Positions 2,136 through 40,850 of a DNA stretch of 64,000 bases are shown piece by piece. Source of the DNA: an uncultured Bacteroidales bacterium (GTDB lineage: Bacteria; Bacteroidota; Bacteroidia; Bacteroidales; UBA932); the NCBI GenBank assembly GCA_905234795.1, contig CAJOIQ010000001.1:186001-250000 (forward strand), given 5' to 3'. Position 1 is the first letter of the stretch; each line of letters opens with the position of its first letter. The notes under the pieces were generated by a model, which worked only from the letters and a program-made list of their open reading frames with translations, ran no database searches and was not told the DNA's origin. Made by a program: the position numbers and the translations under genes.

Positions 2136-3590
2136 TTAGTCAGAAATGGAAAAGTTATGAATAATTGCTCTTTGGTAAATGAAATTATAGGTTGTGGAGA
2201 CATCTTGGATAAGCCAGTCTCCTGACGGGGCAAAGTAATCATCATTATGTAATCCTCCCCATCCCCAATTCATTCGGAAATGAGTAACGTATGGAATGTC
2301 ATATGTTACTGTTGTTTTTGGTCGAATATATGGCATGGCAGGCCCCGGGCCCCACCATTCATCCCAAACCCATTCGTATTCGTTGATATATTGAATACTG
2401 TTTCTTTTATAACCATCAATGATAAAGCAATGTCCATCAGAATAAACAGGGAAAAGCCCAAGAATATATTCTACTGTCCCATCTGCTCGGGCGATAACAG
2501 GCATCCCGTTGGTTAGACTTTCTTTTACTGTTGCAAGGTCGTAGCTGGAATAAGAGCAGGATATCCCATAATACTCAAACACATCGTCAACAAGATCACT
2601 GGTTGAGGCTTCCGATCCATTGGGCGAGTAATCCATACCAACCCTTTTACCAACATCGGCAATCAAAACAGCGGCAGAATAACAATTCTTAAGATTGATA
2701 GAATTATATTTCATGTAGTTCCAGGTGGAACTAGATGCTCCGCCCGTATATCCGTATCCACTTCCGTAAGGGATGTTACAATAGGCGGTGTCGGGAGCGA
2801 ATACTGGAGTCCCGAGTTTGTCGTGTAAATAAAAAAGCATTTGAGCTCCAGCAACAGCGACGCATCCAGCATAGACATGATATTGACTTCCAGCAGAAAT
2901 TAATGGACAATACTCATTATAGTTACCCTCTTGCCCCCACTGTGTTTCTGTTAAACGAATATCGTCGTATACCACAGAACTCGAAGAGACGTTTACAAGC
3001 TCCCAATGCCCTGTTCCCGGGTAAACAGGAAGCGTGTCAAATATGGAAAATCTTTCCTCTCGGAGTGTGGAAGAAATAAGTTCTTCATCACAACAAATCA
3101 ATCTCCAAAAATGCTTAGATTGCTCAATATTAGTCAACTGTTCATTTGTGAGAGATGAATAATCTTTCAAATGCATGAGGATTTTTACATCGGCAGCAAG
3201 AGATTCTACCCATGCGAGCATTTCAACATTTTCTATTTCTTTGGAAAAGCCACCATTGTCTCCGGTTGCAATTATCACAGGGGCACGTTTGTCGCCAGCG
3301 ATAATGTCCCAGCCTTTATTGTAGTTAATTACGTACAGCAGAGTGTCTTCGCCATCGGAAAGGGGCTCTACTGAAACAGCTGTTTTACCATAACCAAGAT
3401 TCTTATAATGAAGGAACGCTTCTACATCTTTCATAGAAACACTTGTATTTTCCTCTGCTATTGTCGTTTTGGTCAAAATCTCCTGTTGAATAATATCAAC
3501 AACAGAGCTTCGAACATCGAAACCTCCTTTTGTGCTTAAACAGCCTGAAAGAAATAATAACAGAGAAAAAACAAATAGAATCTTTTTCAT
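2136..3590 (-). CDS. C10-family cysteine protease (streptopain-like), lipoprotein signal
   Basis: Propeptide region, then catalytic Cys in YAGCVAVAGAQMLFY, catalytic His in DGHCFIIDGYK, and MNWGWGGLHNDDYF; lipobox LSGC. Confidence 0.88.
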   Translation of the reverse strand: MKKILFVFSLLLFLSGCLSTKGGFDVRSSVVDIIQQEILTKTTIAEENTSVSMKDVEAFLHYKNLGYGKTAVSVEPLSDGEDTLLYVINYNKGWDIIAGDKRAPVIIATGDNGGFSKEIENVEMLAWVESLAADVKILMHLKDYSSLTNEQLTNIEQSKHFWRLICCDEELISSTLREERFSIFDTLPVYPGTGHWELVNVSSSSVVYDDIRLTETQWGQEGNYNEYCPLISAGSQYHVYAGCVAVAGAQMLFYLHDKLGTPVFAPDTAYCNIPYGSGYGYTGGASSSTWNYMKYNSINLKNCYSAAVLIADVGKRVGMDYSPNGSEASTSDLVDDVFEYYGISCSYSSYDLATVKESLTNGMPVIARADGTVEYILGLFPVYSDGHCFIIDGYKRNSIQYINEYEWVWDEWWGPGPAMPYIRPKTTVTYDIPYVTHFRMNWGWGGLHNDDYFAPSGDWLIQDVSTTYNFIYQRAIIHNFSISD

Positions 3591-3603
3591 ATTGAATTTA
3601 CCC

Positions 3604-3774
3604 CTAGTTTTTAGGACTGTTCTTCATATCCAGGATTTCCGGGATGTTGGAGATGGTGACGGGCTCGCTGGAAAGAAGCACGGCGCTAATCACTTCCAGG
3701 GCCTCGTTCTTGGCCCCCTGCGGGGTAATGCTGCCGGAGAGCTTGTGCCCTCCCTCGATGATGAATTTTGCCAT
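3604..3774 (-). pseudogene. duplicated 5' fragment of murA (56-codon ORF)
   Basis: 3618..3774 is near-identical to 946..1101; encodes MAKFIIEGGHKLSGSITPQGAKNEALEVISAVLLSSEPVTISNIPEILDMKNSPKN*. Confidence 0.92.
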
Positions 3775-3799
3775 TATACGTGCAGAAATGTTAACACTA

Positions 3800-4366
3800 T
3801 TAGTCGATAAAGTCGTGTCTTACGGGAGTAATCTTGTTAATAATGATATTGATTTTATCACCTTTAATGGAGGTAATCGTTATATTGAAACTTAAATAGT
3901 TCTCTTCGTTCTCTTCATAGTCGGGCATGTGAAAGACACCAAGTTGTACGTTTTTAACCAACTCATTCTTTCCAGTATATTGGCCCTGGTGCATGGGAAT
4001 GTCAAGGGTAGAACCCAACCCTAAAGATTCGTTCAGGCCATTAATGCAAATCCTTTCAACAATTTGATCCCCCGTTAACGTTTCATCATAGTTGAGACCT
4101 TGGTAAATACGTTGTTCAACTATAAGAAGAGGTGTGTTTTCCGGGCCTTCTGGATAAGTAGAATAATTGTTGCTAAAAAAACGTGAAACGATGCTGTCAT
4201 ACTTTATATGATAGCCAAGAAAGACAGAGCCAACCTTATAAAAAGATTGTTCATATTTGGCCGAAACAACATGAATATAATTTGATTCATTTCCAAGCTT
4301 GCTGCAGTTGGTCAAACAACCTGAAAGGGAAATCAACAGGAGTAATAAATAAAGAGTCTTTCTCAT
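3800..4366 (-). CDS. small lipoprotein, paralogue of 1127..1693
   Basis: 188 aa, lipobox LTNC, extensive identity to 1127..1693. Confidence 0.8.
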   Translation of the reverse strand: MRKTLYLLLLLISLSGCLTNCSKLGNESNYIHVVSAKYEQSFYKVGSVFLGYHIKYDSIVSRFFSNNYSTYPEGPENTPLLIVEQRIYQGLNYDETLTGDQIVERICINGLNESLGLGSTLDIPMHQGQYTGKNELVKNVQLGVFHMPDYEENEENYLSFNITITSIKGDKINIIINKITPVRHDFID

Positions 4367-4380
4367 GTTGAGTAATAGTA

Positions 4381-4950
4381 CTACTTTTCGGGGATGTCAA
4401 AGGTGCCGGCGGGAATGCTGGGGTTCTCCTGCAGTTCCTCTAGCTCGATGAAGGTGTCGGCAGAAAGTTTTTTCTTGAAATGCTGCCGGATGATGATGCC
4501 TTTATATACCCAGTTGGTCACCTTGACCTTGGATAGCATCTGTTTCCGCTCTTCCTCATACACCACGCAAGGGTAGCCTTTGTATTCTTCTTCTCCTATC
4601 TTCTTGATTTTGAATTCCTTCATCTGTGCTTCGGTGAGGGTGAGCCAGTTCACCTGCGGCCGGCCTTCCATCTTTTTCACCTGGTTGTCGTTGTTGATGG
4701 CCCAGCCCTCTTCTCCCTTGAAAACGGTAGTGGCCAGAAAGACGCCCAGTTCCGGACCCATGTTCATTTCGGTGACCCCTTTTTCGTCGAACCCATAGTT
4801 GTCGAACCACAGGTAGTTGTAGGATTTGTAGTCGCCCATGATGGACGCGGTTTTCATATAACCGGACTTGACGCCGTAACGGTGATTCTCCTGTGCGCCC
4901 AGGGGCAGCAGCAGGCCGATGGCCAAAAGGGTTAGGAGGATTCTTTTCAT
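4381..4950 (-). CDS. secreted protein of unknown function (DUF4412-like)
   Basis: Signal peptide MKRILLTLLAIGLLLPLGAQ; 189 aa; 4 kb minus-strand gene run with murB. Confidence 0.6.
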   Translation of the reverse strand: MKRILLTLLAIGLLLPLGAQENHRYGVKSGYMKTASIMGDYKSYNYLWFDNYGFDEKGVTEMNMGPELGVFLATTVFKGEEGWAINNDNQVKKMEGRPQVNWLTLTEAQMKEFKIKKIGEEEYKGYPCVVYEEERKQMLSKVKVTNWVYKGIIIRQHFKKKLSADTFIELEELQENPSIPAGTFDIPEK

Positions 4951-4963
4951 GGTATTGAGGGGG

Positions 4964-6100
4964 TTAGATGTGTTCCACTTCGGGGTGAAGGGTTATTCCG
5001 TACTTTTCCCGGATGGTGCCGATGATACGCTGCTCCAGGCCGATGATTTCCTGCGGGGAGGCTTCTCCGGACGCGTTGACAATCACCAGCGGCTGCCTGG
5101 GGTACACCTGCGCGCCGCCGTTGGTGGCGCCCTTGAAGCCGCACTGCTCAATCATCCAGGCCGCCGGCACCTTGATCTGGTCTCCCACCACGTAATGCGG
5201 CACCTGATACTCCGGTCCGTTGTCCTTTTGGGCAATGGCCACAATGCGGGCGAAGTGCTCCCGGCTGATGACCGGGTTGCAGAAAAAGCTTCCCGCCGAT
5301 CCTGTCACCGCCGGATCCGGCAGTTTCTGGTTCCGGATGCCGATGATGGTGTCCCGGATGATTTGTGGAGTAAGCGGCCCTTCCGGCAGTGCTTTGCGGA
5401 TGCCGCCGTAATCCAGCACCGGCTTGGGCTCGCGGGACAGGCGGTAGGTGACGGCTGTGATGATGTACCGGCCTTTCCACTCGGTTTTGAACTTGGAAGT
5501 GCGGTAACCGTACCCGCAAGTGGCCGGGTCAATGTGTACAAATCGGCCCTCTACGCGGTCCCAGGCCCTGATATCGGCAATGATGTCCTTGGCCTCCACG
5601 CCGTATGCGCCGATGTTCTGCACCGCGCTGGCCCCCACTTCTCCCGGTATCAGTGACAGGTTTTCCGGTCCCCACAATCCTTCCACGGCCGCCCAGGCGC
5701 AGAACTCGTCGAAGACCACGCCGGCCGGCAGGGTGACGGAGAGACTCCCCTTGGAGGACGTGTCCACCCCCGGACACGGGCAGGGGGAGGGGCCCGTTGG
5801 ATACAAGTCCCCGGAGGGGACGCAGGAGACAATGGGAGGGGCCGGAGTGAGCGAAGCGAACGGAGTTCCTCCGAGGGGAGTCTCTCCGCCACCGATGCCC
5901 ATGTGGAGCACGGTGCCGGGGAAATCCCGGGTGAAGAGGAGGTTGGAGCCGCCGCCCATCACCATCACGGGCTGCGGGAGGGCAGACCAGTCAAGGGCCG
6001 GCAACTCTTCTTCGGCCTCTATTTCTATATAAAGCGCGCAGGACACCTTCATCCGGAAGGTGTTCCGCGCACTAAGGTCGTATGACGGGATTTGAATCAA
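4964..6100 (-). CDS. murB: UDP-N-acetylenolpyruvoylglucosamine reductase MurB with in-frame insertion
   Basis: [72 protein letters not shown] motifs; extra ~50 aa between [10 protein letters not shown] and [10 protein letters not shown]. Confidence 0.95.
5738..5887. repeat. 150-bp palindromic element in frame within murB
   Basis: Terminal inverted arms 5738..5759 and 5866..5887 match at 20/22; internal hairpins CGTGTCC/GGACACG (5759..5778) and GTCCCC/GGGGAC (5807..5821), plus CCCGTTG/CAATGGG (5793..5836). Confidence 0.8.
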
Positions 6101-36305: not shown

Positions 36306-37127
36306 TTATTGTAAGCCGGTTACAGGGTCTGAGTTGTCGGTGTCGTTCTTGGCGCCGGGGGTAGCTGCGGTATAGCACCAGGTGCCGGTACCGTCGGGAA
36401 CGCGGCTGTAGGATGCCGGGGCCGTCTTGGCTACGGTGACCAGGTTGAAGTCGTCCACGTCGTTGCCGGAAGGGTCTTTGAGCTCAATGCGCACAGCCTT
36501 CTTGGCCGACAGGCCGGAATGGAACACCAGGGTTTCGTCATAGCCTTCCTGTTTACCGCCGGCAACGACTACATCCTCGCTGTATAGGAGCAGGATGGCG
36601 CCGGGTTCCAGCAGGATGGCGGGACCGGTCCATACGGCGTCGGCTTTGCCGTCCTTGACGATGGTCACGTCTTTCATGGTGACGGGATCGGTACCGGTGT
36701 TGATGATCTCAATGAATTTGTCGTTGCCGTTGAGCTCGTTCAGCTTGAGTTTGGTATAGTCTACGGGAGCCTCTCCCACCTTGTAGGATACAACGGCCGA
36801 TTTGGACGAACCACCTTTTGTGATGGCCTCGATGTAATACTTCACTTCCGTGCCGATGGCGGCGGCGGGAATGGTTCCGGAATAGACACTGCCGGCGGCG
36901 GTCATCTTGACCGACTTTTCGGCGGCGGAGCCCAGGGTGTAGTACAGGTTCACTTCCTGGATGGGAACAAAGGCGTTCACGGTAGCCGTAACAGTGACCT
37001 GGTCGGTCTCGTAGTAGGCGACGGTGTTGGCGATGGAGCTGAGGGAAGCGATGGGGTAAACCTCGTCTTTGACACAGGCGGTGAGGGCGAGGAGGGCGGC
37101 TATAGAAGCAATGAATAACTTTTTCAT
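36306..37127 (-). CDS. secreted lipoprotein with lamin-tail-like domain
   Basis: Start set at MKKLFIASIAALLALTAC; LKLNELNGNDKFIEIINTGTDPVTMKDVTIV...LVTVAKTAPASYSRVPDGTGTWCYTAATPGAKN. Confidence 0.75.
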   Translation of the reverse strand: MKKLFIASIAALLALTACVKDEVYPIASLSSIANTVAYYETDQVTVTATVNAFVPIQEVNLYYTLGSAAEKSVKMTAAGSVYSGTIPAAAIGTEVKYYIEAITKGGSSKSAVVSYKVGEAPVDYTKLKLNELNGNDKFIEIINTGTDPVTMKDVTIVKDGKADAVWTGPAILLEPGAILLLYSEDVVVAGGKQEGYDETLVFHSGLSAKKAVRIELKDPSGNDVDDFNLVTVAKTAPASYSRVPDGTGTWCYTAATPGAKNDTDNSDPVTGLQ

Positions 37128-37140
37128 AGGACGGTCAATA

Positions 37141-38487
37141 TTAGAAGTCAATCTCGAAACGAACGGCTAACATGCTGTAGCTGACGCCGGCTTTTGCGGC
37201 GGCAATCTTGGTATAGTCCTTGGTGGGGGCGCCGGTGTCGTCCAGGCCCACGAAGAGCTTGTTCTTGCCGTTGGCATAACGGTCGTTGTGGTTGTACTGG
37301 TAGTTTACCTGGAACTTCACGTTGTTGTTCACCCAGTAGTTGAGGCCGACGCAGATGGCTTCGGCGGCACCGCCGTAAACATTGCCGCAGTTCAGGTTCA
37401 GGAATTCATAACGGGCGCACAGTTCAATGTCTCCCCATTTCTTTCCGGGCTTCACCTTGGTGTACTTGCCGCCGTTGGCGTCGTAGCGCTGGGTGCCGCC
37501 GAAGAGCAGGTAGCCTGCCTGGCCGTACCAGCCCCAGAATTTCTTGGGAGTGGGATCCACAGCCGTGGACTTGAAGGATACGATGTCCTGCATGAAGGCG
37601 CCCTCATAGCGCAGACCGCCCCAGTGACCGGCGATTTCGGCCGTCCACAGGAGGTTGTGGGTGTAGTCGGCCAGGTTGTCGGTGTCCAGATATTTCTTGC
37701 GGTTGATACTGGTGGAATTACGGGCGCTGGCGCGATAGGTGCCGTATTTCTCGTCGCTGGCCTTGGGGGTGCGGTAGGAAACGGCGGCACCCAGGTGCAG
37801 GCTGGCATTCTCCATCTTGTACAGCGGGCGGAAGACTACTTTTCCGGTGAGGGAATAACCGGCGTTGTAGCCATAGTCCTTGTTGTTGTCGGCAATGTAC
37901 TGCCATTCCTCGGATCCGGCGATTTCGGGGCCGAACACGCCGGCGCTCACCCACAGCCAGTCCTTGGCGTACTTGGCGTTGATACCCACGTGGCGGGAAG
38001 GTGCAAGGGCGCTGCACACCATGGGACGCTCGATGAACTGGAGGTAACGGGAGGTGGTGTTGCGCTGGATGGAGAAGTTCTCCTTGAAGTTACCCACCTG
38101 CAGTTCCAGGTTGGGAACGCCGGTGTAACGCACGATAGCGTCTTTCAGTTCCACCAGACCGTTGGCCAGGTCCATGTCGAATTCTCCGTACCAGTTCTCG
38201 TCAATCTGGCCTTTCACGGCAAAACGGGCGCGGCGGATGCTCACGCCGTTACCGATCTTGTCGGCATAGGAAGGGGCGCCGAAGAAGACGGCGGCGTCCA
38301 TTTGGGCGCGGATGTCGAACCAGAGTTTGTACTTGCTGGTGGGGGAGGACAATACCAGGATACCGTCCTGGGCTTCCACATCCAGACGGTCGCTCTGCAC
38401 GGCCACGCCGTACTGGTTCACCTTCTGGGCAAAGGCTGCCGACAGGGTCAGCAGCACTGCTGCAGCGATAGAGATTAGTTTACGCAT
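37141..38487 (-). CDS. OprO/OprP-type phosphate-selective porin family protein
   Basis: Signal peptide; SIRRARFAVKGQIDENWYGEFDMDLANG, QVGNFKENFSIQRNTTSRYLQFIERP, C-terminal beta-barrel strand AVRFEIDF. Confidence 0.82.
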   Translation of the reverse strand: MRKLISIAAAVLLTLSAAFAQKVNQYGVAVQSDRLDVEAQDGILVLSSPTSKYKLWFDIRAQMDAAVFFGAPSYADKIGNGVSIRRARFAVKGQIDENWYGEFDMDLANGLVELKDAIVRYTGVPNLELQVGNFKENFSIQRNTTSRYLQFIERPMVCSALAPSRHVGINAKYAKDWLWVSAGVFGPEIAGSEEWQYIADNNKDYGYNAGYSLTGKVVFRPLYKMENASLHLGAAVSYRTPKASDEKYGTYRASARNSTSINRKKYLDTDNLADYTHNLLWTAEIAGHWGGLRYEGAFMQDIVSFKSTAVDPTPKKFWGWYGQAGYLLFGGTQRYDANGGKYTKVKPGKKWGDIELCARYEFLNLNCGNVYGGAAEAICVGLNYWVNNNVKFQVNYQYNHNDRYANGKNKLFVGLDDTGAPTKDYTKIAAAKAGVSYSMLAVRFEIDF

Positions 38488-38509: not shown

Positions 38510-40090
38510 TTAGATAGTTTTGATATAATGGACCAGGTTGTCGCTGCGTTTCAAACCCAGTTTGATACGCAGGCGGTACCTGCTGATTTCTACACTTTTA
38601 GGCGTGATGTTCATGAGGGAGGCGATGTATTTGGAGGAGAAGCCCTGGCGCAGCAGGTTGGCCAGCCGGCGCTCGCTATCCGTCAGGTCCGGGAAGGCTT
38701 CTTTGAGCCGCGTGTTGAAGTCCCGGTGCAGGATCTCGGTACGCGCATAGAAGTCGCTGATTTCCCGGGAGAAGTACATGCGCTCCCGCAGTTCGTTCAA
38801 TACGGCGTCCAGCGCTTCCTCCCGCTTGGGCCCTTCCGGCAGGTCACGCACCCGGGACAGGCGGGCGTATACCTTTTCCATGAACGCCTTTTGCTCGCTT
38901 ACGCCCACGGCGTAGTCCACCAGCTCCTTGCGCTTGTTCTCCAGTTTGGTGAGAAGCTCTTTCTCGTTGGTTTCCACGCGCACCTCAAGGGCCGATAACG
39001 CTTTCTGCGTGGAATAAACCTGCTCCTCCCGGGAGCGCAGCATCTCGGCGCGGCGGGTTTCGGCCCTCTGGGCGTGCACGTATATATATAAGGCTGCAAC
39101 CACGGCAATCAGGCCCACCAGGATGAGGGTAGAGAGCACCATGCCCAGGCAGTAGCTGATGAGGAAAGCCAACACGGGAGCGGCGCCTTGTGATCCGGTG
39201 CTCTTGAGGATGTCTTTTCCGGTCACCAGGGCGTTTTTCTGGGCCAGGCTCATGCCCACCAGCCCGGCCATCAGCAGGGAACAGGCACTGAGCGGCGTGG
39301 GCTCCAGTCCCACCTGCCGGATACCGGTCCAGGAGAACAGCAGGAAGCAAATGGTCATGGACAACATTACGGCCAGGGCCGAGCAGGAGCCGAAGTCGCT
39401 GTCCTCTTCCAGGGAGGGCTTGGTGCGCAAGAAACTCACCAGGCCCAACAGGATCAGAGCCAGCCCGGCGGCCAGGGTTCCATCCTCCAGCAGCAGGCGC
39501 GGGAACAAAGTGATGATCTGCCCCATATTCCACACGCAGCTGCCGGTGAGCAGCAGGGATGCTACCGCACAGCCAGCCTGCAGCCGCTGGTCAATGAGGG
39601 CCAGATGGCGGCCCGGGCGAGTGGCGTACCAGCACAGGCATTTGCCCACCAGAAAAGCCAGGATGCAGCACAGGACAGGGGCCGCAACCCAACTCAGGGC
39701 CATGCTCCCGGCACGCATCCAGTCAAAGGTCTCGTCGGCCATGAAGCGGTACCCGAAGAGGGCGCCCATCACGGCATAGGGAACGGAGGTGCGACGATGG
39801 ATGACGGCGGAGATGGCCACGGCGGCCGCTGCGCCCAGGACAATAATGAAGATGTCCCGGAGATCGGCCGATGCCGCGGCGGAGAGAAGGGACTCGCCGT
39901 AGGGTTCCTGGATGAAAATGGGGATGCCGATGCCGGCGATGACCAGCACGGGGAGCAGCAACTTGACGCTCCACCTCTCCTGCGCGCCGGAGGCGTTGAC
40001 CGGTGCGGAAACGGCCGGGAATTCCAGCCGCATCAGCAGGAAACCCAGCGAGAAGAGGGCGAAGACCAGTGTGCTCAGCGTGAGGAACAT
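38510..40090 (-). CDS. multi-TM (degenerate PiT-like) protein fused to coiled coil and LuxR-type HTH
   Basis: About 10 TM segments incl. RRTSVPYAVMGALFGYRF...ALSWVAAPVLCCILAFLV (PiT-like), then coiled coil and C-terminal FPDLTDSERRLANLLRQGFSSKYIASLMNITPKSVEISRYRLRIKLGL. Confidence 0.7.
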   Translation of the reverse strand: MFLTLSTLVFALFSLGFLLMRLEFPAVSAPVNASGAQERWSVKLLLPVLVIAGIGIPIFIQEPYGESLLSAAASADLRDIFIIVLGAAAAVAISAVIHRRTSVPYAVMGALFGYRFMADETFDWMRAGSMALSWVAAPVLCCILAFLVGKCLCWYATRPGRHLALIDQRLQAGCAVASLLLTGSCVWNMGQIITLFPRLLLEDGTLAAGLALILLGLVSFLRTKPSLEEDSDFGSCSALAVMLSMTICFLLFSWTGIRQVGLEPTPLSACSLLMAGLVGMSLAQKNALVTGKDILKSTGSQGAAPVLAFLISYCLGMVLSTLILVGLIAVVAALYIYVHAQRAETRRAEMLRSREEQVYSTQKALSALEVRVETNEKELLTKLENKRKELVDYAVGVSEQKAFMEKVYARLSRVRDLPEGPKREEALDAVLNELRERMYFSREISDFYARTEILHRDFNTRLKEAFPDLTDSERRLANLLRQGFSSKYIASLMNITPKSVEISRYRLRIKLGLKRSDNLVHYIKTI

Positions 40091-40093
40091 TCC

Positions 40094-40756
40094 CTATAAG
40101 CTTCTCTTGATGGACATCACAGAGAGCTGTTCGGCCACCTTGACGGCGGCGGTGGACAGGTCTTCAATATGGAGCGCGAAGTAGCGCAGGTGGAATTTTT
40201 CGCTCAGCTTGAGCTGTTTCATCTCGTGGAAGACCGTGCGCTTGATGGACTGGGACAGCTTCACGGCCTGCTTGTCATAGAGGTACACGCGATGGATGTT
40301 CTCGCTCACCTGGTCCGGGTGCGTGAAATAGGCCTTGGTGCCCGGGATGGTGGTCTCGGCGGCCAGGGTGGCCAGCTCGGCCAGCTTCACGAACTCCTTC
40401 TTCAGTTCCGTAGGCACGGAAGGAGATTCGATCTCGAACTGGATGAGGTCGTTGCTCAGGATGGAGAGGATGTGGTCGAAGCGCTCCAGCAGACGCATGA
40501 TGTCTCCGCGGTAGCGGATGAGGGCGCCGCGGGAGTACAGCATGTTCTCGATATCCCGCCGCAGGGCGCCGGCTTCGGTCTCGGCGGTGGCCATGGCCGA
40601 GAGGGTTTGGGAAAAACTCTCGGTGTCGTTGTAGAGGTAACTGCGGACGCCTTCCTTAAAGAGTATCAATGCGGTATCTACCGTATTGAGGAGTTTGTCC
40701 ACGCTTTCTGCAAACAGTTTTGCGCGGTTTGTAGAGAATAATTGGAACAGTTTCAT
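40094..40756 (-). CDS. DUF47 (PhoU-like) family protein
   Basis: 220 aa helical; KLLNTVDTALILFKEGVRSYL, ALRRDIENMLYSRGALIRYRGDIMRLLERFDHILS, VKVAEQLSVMSIKRSL. Confidence 0.85.
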   Translation of the reverse strand: MKLFQLFSTNRAKLFAESVDKLLNTVDTALILFKEGVRSYLYNDTESFSQTLSAMATAETEAGALRRDIENMLYSRGALIRYRGDIMRLLERFDHILSILSNDLIQFEIESPSVPTELKKEFVKLAELATLAAETTIPGTKAYFTHPDQVSENIHRVYLYDKQAVKLSQSIKRTVFHEMKQLKLSEKFHLRYFALHIEDLSTAAVKVAEQLSVMSIKRSL

Positions 40757-40780: not shown

Positions 40781-40788
40781 CAAAGTTA
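40781..40788 (-). promoter_or_regulatory. putative -7 box (TAACTTTG) for DUF47-led operon
   Basis: TAnnTTTG on minus strand 24 nt before ATG at 40756. Confidence 0.5.
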
Positions 40789-40850
40789 ACCATTGTTCAC
40801 ATGAAAACCAATTTTCGGAGGCGTTTGTTGGGTTTTTGTAGAGTTTTTTT

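Follow-up and report, generated by a model that had tools for sequence, protein, structure and literature searches.

Organization of the locus

The window, a stretch of 64,000 nucleotides from an uncultured Bacteroidales bacterium, carried on its minus strand a cassette encoding a DUF47/PhoU-like protein, a 526-aa membrane protein with a DNA-binding domain (the sensor), an OprO/P-family porin and a lipoprotein-like protein (Table 1). The DUF47 gene was the upstream neighbour of the sensor gene, as the first-pass annotation had noted, with a gap of 3 bp; its product matched Pfam PF01865 (DUF47/PhoU_div) over residues 5-216, scoring 34.6 against a cut-off of 24.4, and a profile of this DUF47 subfamily had no sequence match among solved structures. 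The porin ORF began 22 bp past the sensor stop codon and its product belonged to the Porin_O_P family. Orthologous DUF47-sensor-porin cassettes were conserved across many species of the window's genus, so the arrangement is not due to chance. The lipoprotein-like gene was often the fourth member, with related genes behind the porin in L073, L074, L077, L078 and L079. Related loci came mostly from ruminant-gut Bacteroidales MAGs.

Table 1. Features of the cassette and its upstream region, with positions in the window.
Feature	Position	Strand	Evidence
Lipoprotein-like protein with lamin-tail domain; likely start 37127 (MKKLFIAS...)	36306..37127	minus	Pfam LTD, 3.1e-8
OprO/P-family porin, 448 aa, same operon	37141..38487	minus	Pfam PF07396, 2.5e-41; conserved next gene in cassettes
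Degenerate PiT-TM-coiled coil-LuxR HTH protein, 526 aa; putative membrane-tethered regulator	38510..40090	minus	Pfam, AF2 model, hhalign, Foldseek, motif table
LuxR/GerE helix-turn-helix (residues 469-522); recognition helix TPKSVEISRYRLR from residue 496	38525..38686	minus	Pfam GerE, 6.5e-7
Linker TM helix (residues 321-345) and coiled coil (346-415)	38846..39130	minus	AF2 helix 321-415; positive charge past last TM
Membrane domain of PiT origin (residues 1-320) without the transport signatures	39131..40090	minus	hhalign, Foldseek, motif table
DUF47/PhoU-like protein, 220 aa; probably the subunit for signal input or relay	40094..40756	minus	Pfam PF01865, 1.6e-8; near-invariant LKLSEKFHLRYFALHIE in subfamily alignment A2
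Candidate Bacteroidota -7 promoter element TAACTTTG (TAnnTTTG type)	40781..40788	minus	Sequence; general Bacteroidota consensus
Candidate operator AACTCTACAAAAACCCAACA; its CTCTACA core begins 87 bp before the DUF47 ATG	40826..40845	minus	Sole window match to AACTCTACAANAACYCWACA

The coiled coil and C-terminal LuxR-type helix-turn-helix (HTH) described in the first-pass annotation proved real. The GerE/LuxR match was well above its Pfam cut-off and the HTH drew probability-1.00 structure matches in Foldseek, while the AF2 model (pLDDT 80.6) comprised helices over residues 2-318, a single helix over residues 321-415 and the HTH. A PHO4 match lay just above its cut-off (34.1 against 33.7; 2e-8), in two stretches of which residues 80-158 were the best. 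These were the only two Pfam domains: SLC5, STAC and kinase domains were absent, and no two-component-type receiver domain was found by domain search. Positive charge and the coiled coil come after the last TM helix, which fits a cytoplasmic HTH, and plain PiT permeases of this group mostly stop short of this linker helix.

The home genome (72 contigs, 90.4% complete, 2.29 Mb) had no further matches to the PiT family PF01384. Its second DUF47 gene (L070, contig C8, 4773-5417, plus strand) was solitary, with no adjoining PiT and no CTCTACA element.

A degenerate PiT fold under shifted constraint

Kinship of the N-terminal half with PiT phosphate permeases, on which the first-pass interpretation depended, was clear in both hhalign and Foldseek. 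When profiles were compared in hhalign, an alignment of 17 orthologues (A1) matched plain PiTs encoded beside DUF47 (A4) along 307 columns, almost the whole of a PiT, at a probability of 99.2%, and an HMM built from Bacteroidales PiTs hit both halves of the membrane domain (residues 76-180 and 238-322; 1.6e-7). In a Foldseek search of the PDB, the only fold match of the AF2 model below E 0.001 was to both chains of 6l85 (E 1.2e-4, probability 1.00), the solved sodium-dependent phosphate transporter TmPiT; its remaining probability-1 matches were LuxR-type response-regulator or HTH structures. As a control, the model of an intact PiT-HTH relative (L170) also had 6l85 as its only significant fold match (2.5e-11). 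TM-scores were moderate across both models (0.41-0.64), so helix details are not to be trusted. A generic 7TM-LuxR sensor without PiT kinship was ruled out by the hhalign and Foldseek results.

The sensor is a full-length yet degenerate PiT/PHO4 fold. The two-repeat, full-length fold was recovered by Pfam, hhalign, Foldseek and our own HMM, and the motif table bore out the reported loss of the GANDVANA-type signature: the GANDxANx signatures of both repeats and the PVST-type motifs were retained in the intact relatives (L169-L198) but lost in the window clade. In the window protein both PVST/PVSS motifs and GAND/GANN were gone, and few positions were conserved.

Constraint was reversed between the two clades. 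Mean pairwise identity in the intact clade was 60.6% for the PiT part, 40.9% for the coiled coil plus HTH and 55.0% for the HTH, against 23.2% (TM part), 54.5% and 73.9%, respectively, in the degenerate clade. The reversal persisted in pairs matched at a DUF47 identity of 55-75%, where intact and degenerate forms had identities of 60.4% and 22.8% in the TM part and 51.1% and 75.8% in the HTH. The degenerate TM part was still under purifying selection, with a dN/dS of 0.09-0.38 in close pairs (dS was near saturation in some), which, together with conserved frames, ruled out a pseudogene. We read these patterns as a move of the protein's job from transport to signalling.

Homology, fold, the loss of both PiT signatures, the constraint reversal and the existence of intact fused relatives all support the earlier view of a transporter-derived, probably non-transporting protein tied to a DNA-binding domain. 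Alternatively, the sensor might still work as a transporter with diverged signatures, to which the HTH adds feedback as in a true transceptor. Most PiT helices seem present in the AF2 model and intact relatives exist, but the missing motifs, the scarcity of conserved positions and an NptA-type Na/Pi cotransporter encoded elsewhere in the home genome make this highly improbable. The term transceptor, used in the first-pass annotation, is a better fit for the intact relatives than for the window protein, which resembles a transporter-derived sensor.

A candidate operator upstream of the DUF47 gene

The candidate operator was the single match in the window to AACTCTACAANAACYCWACA at up to 3 mismatches (0.02 expected), and a degenerate second CTCTACA copy lay 11 bp on from its core. 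The nearby promoter candidate is of the TAnnTTTG type, which we take to be the Bacteroidota -7 consensus; a scan with the sigma70 consensus, which is unsuited to Bacteroidota, gave nothing above chance. CTCTACA occurred in 25 of the 27 main degenerate loci, with 60 coding-strand and 2 opposite-strand copies within 250 bp (0.4 expected from dinucleotide shuffles), and was absent upstream of 28 other genes in those loci. Copies were often spaced at 11, 33-34, 42-43 or 54-56 bp and preceded a TAnnTTTG-like element. Among intact PiT-HTH loci, 13 of 24 carried CTCTACA (18 copies) and several others had CACTACA, while none of 13 plain PiT loci contained CTCTACA and none of 24 canonical DUF47 loci, some of them in the window's genus, contained C[TA]CTACA. 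The subclade with shortened or fused proteins had RHR instead of RYR in its recognition helix; here CTCTACA was found in only one of nine loci, and CTT[AT]ACA in eight (19 copies; 1.0 in shuffled sequence). When variants were scored jointly, the element was present at 57/59 loci with the HTH and 1/13 without. Three phylogenetically independent contrasts on well-supported branches were all concordant with this association, too few for significance (p 0.25), and the RYR/RHR switch was a single evolutionary event.

L190, which has a PiT without HTH within a clade of PiT-HTH genes, and L191, which has a decayed HTH, both lacked CTCTACA upstream of DUF47, in line with the HTH being the reader of this element. 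In an Alistipes sp. MAG (L163), CTCTACA, CACTACA and CTTAACA were mixed upstream of DUF47 and the recognition helix was RHR, possibly a transitional state of the operator switch.

We postulate that these directional repeats are likely the operator of the cassette. They could instead be an unrelated element, such as a leader RNA or the site of another regulator, as their absence from some cassettes might suggest. This is rather unlikely given that the repeats are strand-biased, lie upstream of the candidate promoter, occur almost only together with the HTH and not at canonical DUF47 loci, and change along with the recognition helix. Two observations count against a regulator acting through the repeats: the window's second copy is degenerate, and 2 of the 59 HTH loci have no motif.

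In scans of nine genomes (the home genome and eight relatives), the tandem element was present at 0-2 mismatches at the cassette and nowhere else. The home genome had further exact AAACTCTACAA sites, all single and lying inside or at the end of genes, so that a wider regulon was rejected; the only promoter-proximal site was the cassette's own. The scans therefore point to a local circuit, and the regulator is probably autoregulatory, with the porin controlled within the operon. The porin had earlier been proposed as a regulatory target; it probably is one, as part of an operon with the candidate operator upstream of its DUF47 gene, and the 22-bp gap showed no promoter of the porin's own.

A proposed path from permease to regulator in Bacteroidales

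Of 300 genomes from the window's genus, 66 carried the DUF47 subfamily, as did 43 of 393 from the order, where 30 of 206 genera were represented; the loci fetched around these matches could be read as a series. The survey proposed in the first-pass annotation, of DUF47 with PiT-HTH versus plain PiT, found both arrangements in Bacteroidales. The first form was DUF47 with a plain PiT (e.g. L194, L199-L209). The second, found in many families (L169-L198), was DUF47 with an intact PiT-TM-coiled coil-HTH protein of ~580 aa, usually followed by the porin and carrying the motifs GAND..N.FG, PVSTSQ, GANNIANVMG and PVPVSS; in a third form the first signature was altered (L182, L186 and L188). Degenerate proteins with neither signature made up the fourth form, in a sister genus (L168), the window's genus and Rikenellaceae/Alistipes/Tidjanibacter MAGs. 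Membrane parts were shortened in the fifth (L013, L014, L213). In the sixth, DUF47 and HTH were fused into one protein, which had two TM segments in L211 and L212 and none in L079; the porin still followed in L079 and L212. On the DUF47 tree, all signature-less forms, the window included, fell in a single clade (bootstrap/SH-aLRT 100/98) and the fusions in one subclade (93/91). Plain PiT and intact fused forms were intermixed on the tree, which implies repeated gain or loss of the HTH. Across 395 genomes of the phylum, no best match outside Bacteroidales had an HTH in frame with a PiT part, and the coiled coil-HTH module was carried by other proteins. With slightly better than even odds, living genomes keep the steps from a DUF47-PiT operon through an intact PiT-HTH transceptor, autoregulating via CTCTACA repeats, and a membrane sensor without signatures to a DUF47-HTH regulator that has shed the transporter; DUF47 would carry the signal throughout, and a cis/trans specificity switch would have occurred along the way.

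Several loci departed from these forms. An apparent 711-aa DUF47-TM-HTH fusion in L113 was rejected, as the reading runs across a masked gap (X residues). In L207 (G055, 2578-4116, minus strand) the DUF47 and porin neighbours were kept, and the membrane domain of the 513-aa HTH protein matched neither the PiT nor the degenerate PiT profile, possibly through a domain swap or extreme divergence.

We propose, with a probability of about 60%, that the window protein is a membrane-tethered one-component transcription regulator that evolved from a PiT permease and acts with its DUF47 partner. An ancestral DUF47-PiT-porin operon would have existed before a Bacteroidales PiT acquired a reorienting TM helix, a coiled coil and a LuxR-type HTH, making the fused protein a phosphate-uptake complex able to control its own operon, i.e. 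a transceptor. In the window lineage the PiT part would then have lost its transport signatures and turned into a membrane platform, with DUF47 and the HTH remaining conserved. DUF47 may read cytoplasmic phosphate, or a related anion or metal state, and alter the packing of platform and coiled coil; the HTHs would then bind the CTCTACA repeats and govern how strongly the DUF47, sensor, porin and lipoprotein genes are expressed, the sensor being more likely an activator of the operon. The computations themselves establish the homology, the fold, the cassette, the evolutionary series, the constraint reversal and the association of motif and HTH; from there we infer the ligand, DUF47 as the input, the loss of transport, the binding of CTCTACA by the HTH and the sign of regulation.

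A possible alternative is that the PiT-like domain is itself the receptor, binding extracellular phosphate without transporting it and passing the change to the coiled coil and HTH in the manner of Snf3/Rgt2 or UhpC, with DUF47 only tuning the response. Retention of the TM domain in most clade members and its fold, kept under purifying selection, fit this reading. We nonetheless consider it unlikely, as this is the fastest-changing part of the protein (23% mean identity), its signature residues are gone and it shrinks to a pair of TM segments in L211 and L212 and has none in L079, without loss of DUF47 or the HTH. DUF47 is the more parsimonious choice of input, since it and the HTH are kept where the membrane domain is not, and the natural fusions mark DUF47 plus HTH as the minimal retained unit.

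Phosphate as the ligand is inferred from the presence of DUF47 and PiT. It is not certain, because PiT-family proteins can carry other anions. The Porin_O_P and PiT families are both broader than phosphate, and the cassette might sense another anion or envelope/metal status, its DUF47-PiT ancestry being merely historical. This phosphate-independent reading seems doubtful, as DUF47 is retained and strongly conserved and PhoU-type proteins function in phosphate regulation (PMC11705898). In Staphylococcus aureus, genetics links a PhoU-type protein to the neighbouring PitA, the pitA phenotype being dependent on pitR, but a two-hybrid assay found no PitR-PitA interaction (PMC11705898), which counts against the proposed model. 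The window cassette resembles PitR-PitA in the placement of a DUF47/PhoU-type gene immediately before one derived from PiT, and differs in that the partner has a DNA-binding domain and natural DUF47-HTH fusions exist. DUF47 occurs widely in association with PiT but its function is poorly understood, and these fusions suggest that it relays a signal.

The proposed regulator shares features with several known systems. With PiT permeases (PF01384; TmPiT; SLC20) it has fold and full-length homology in common, but the window clade lacks both repeat signatures and has gained a C-terminal TM-coiled coil-HTH. Bacteroidota TPR or ~950-aa regulators ending in a TM-coiled coil-LuxR HTH carry a homologous coiled coil and HTH; their inputs, presumably TPR and Y_Y_Y, are not transporter folds. 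Snf3/Rgt2 and UhpC are former transporters that now signal, acting through separate partner proteins, and the window protein is similarly transporter-derived and predicted to signal rather than transport, but carries the DNA-binding domain in the same chain. The described bacterial transceptors are the SLC5-STAC histidine kinases CbrA, MxtR/CrbS and RpuS (PMC13022988, PMC7918813). Like them, the window protein joins a transporter fold to a signalling output (by Pfam and AF2), but it belongs to another transporter family, lacks STAC and kinase domains, has a DUF47 partner and is predicted to bind DNA directly as a one-component system. Bacterial transceptors described to date (CbrA type) couple a transporter to a histidine kinase, whereas here the DNA-binding domain is attached to the transporter fold directly. 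We found no published description of a PiT-HTH protein (PF01384 with PF00196) or of the DUF47-sensor-porin cassette in the open-licence literature. A surviving evolutionary series of a transporter-derived sensor is unusually valuable: its intermediates make the conversion of carrier to sensor testable via natural variants, and the predicted operator makes the regulator model itself testable.

Two further arrangements were observed. In L218 (G195) the TM part (353 aa, 4308-5366) and the coiled coil-HTH part (162 aa, 5442-5927) were separate ORFs, and in L012, whose DUF47 is near-identical, the two parts were fused, marking L218 as a split gene or frameshift. Elsewhere in the phylum, PiT proteins (L227-L235) carried an unrelated, uncharacterised C-terminal extension of roughly 130-150 aa.
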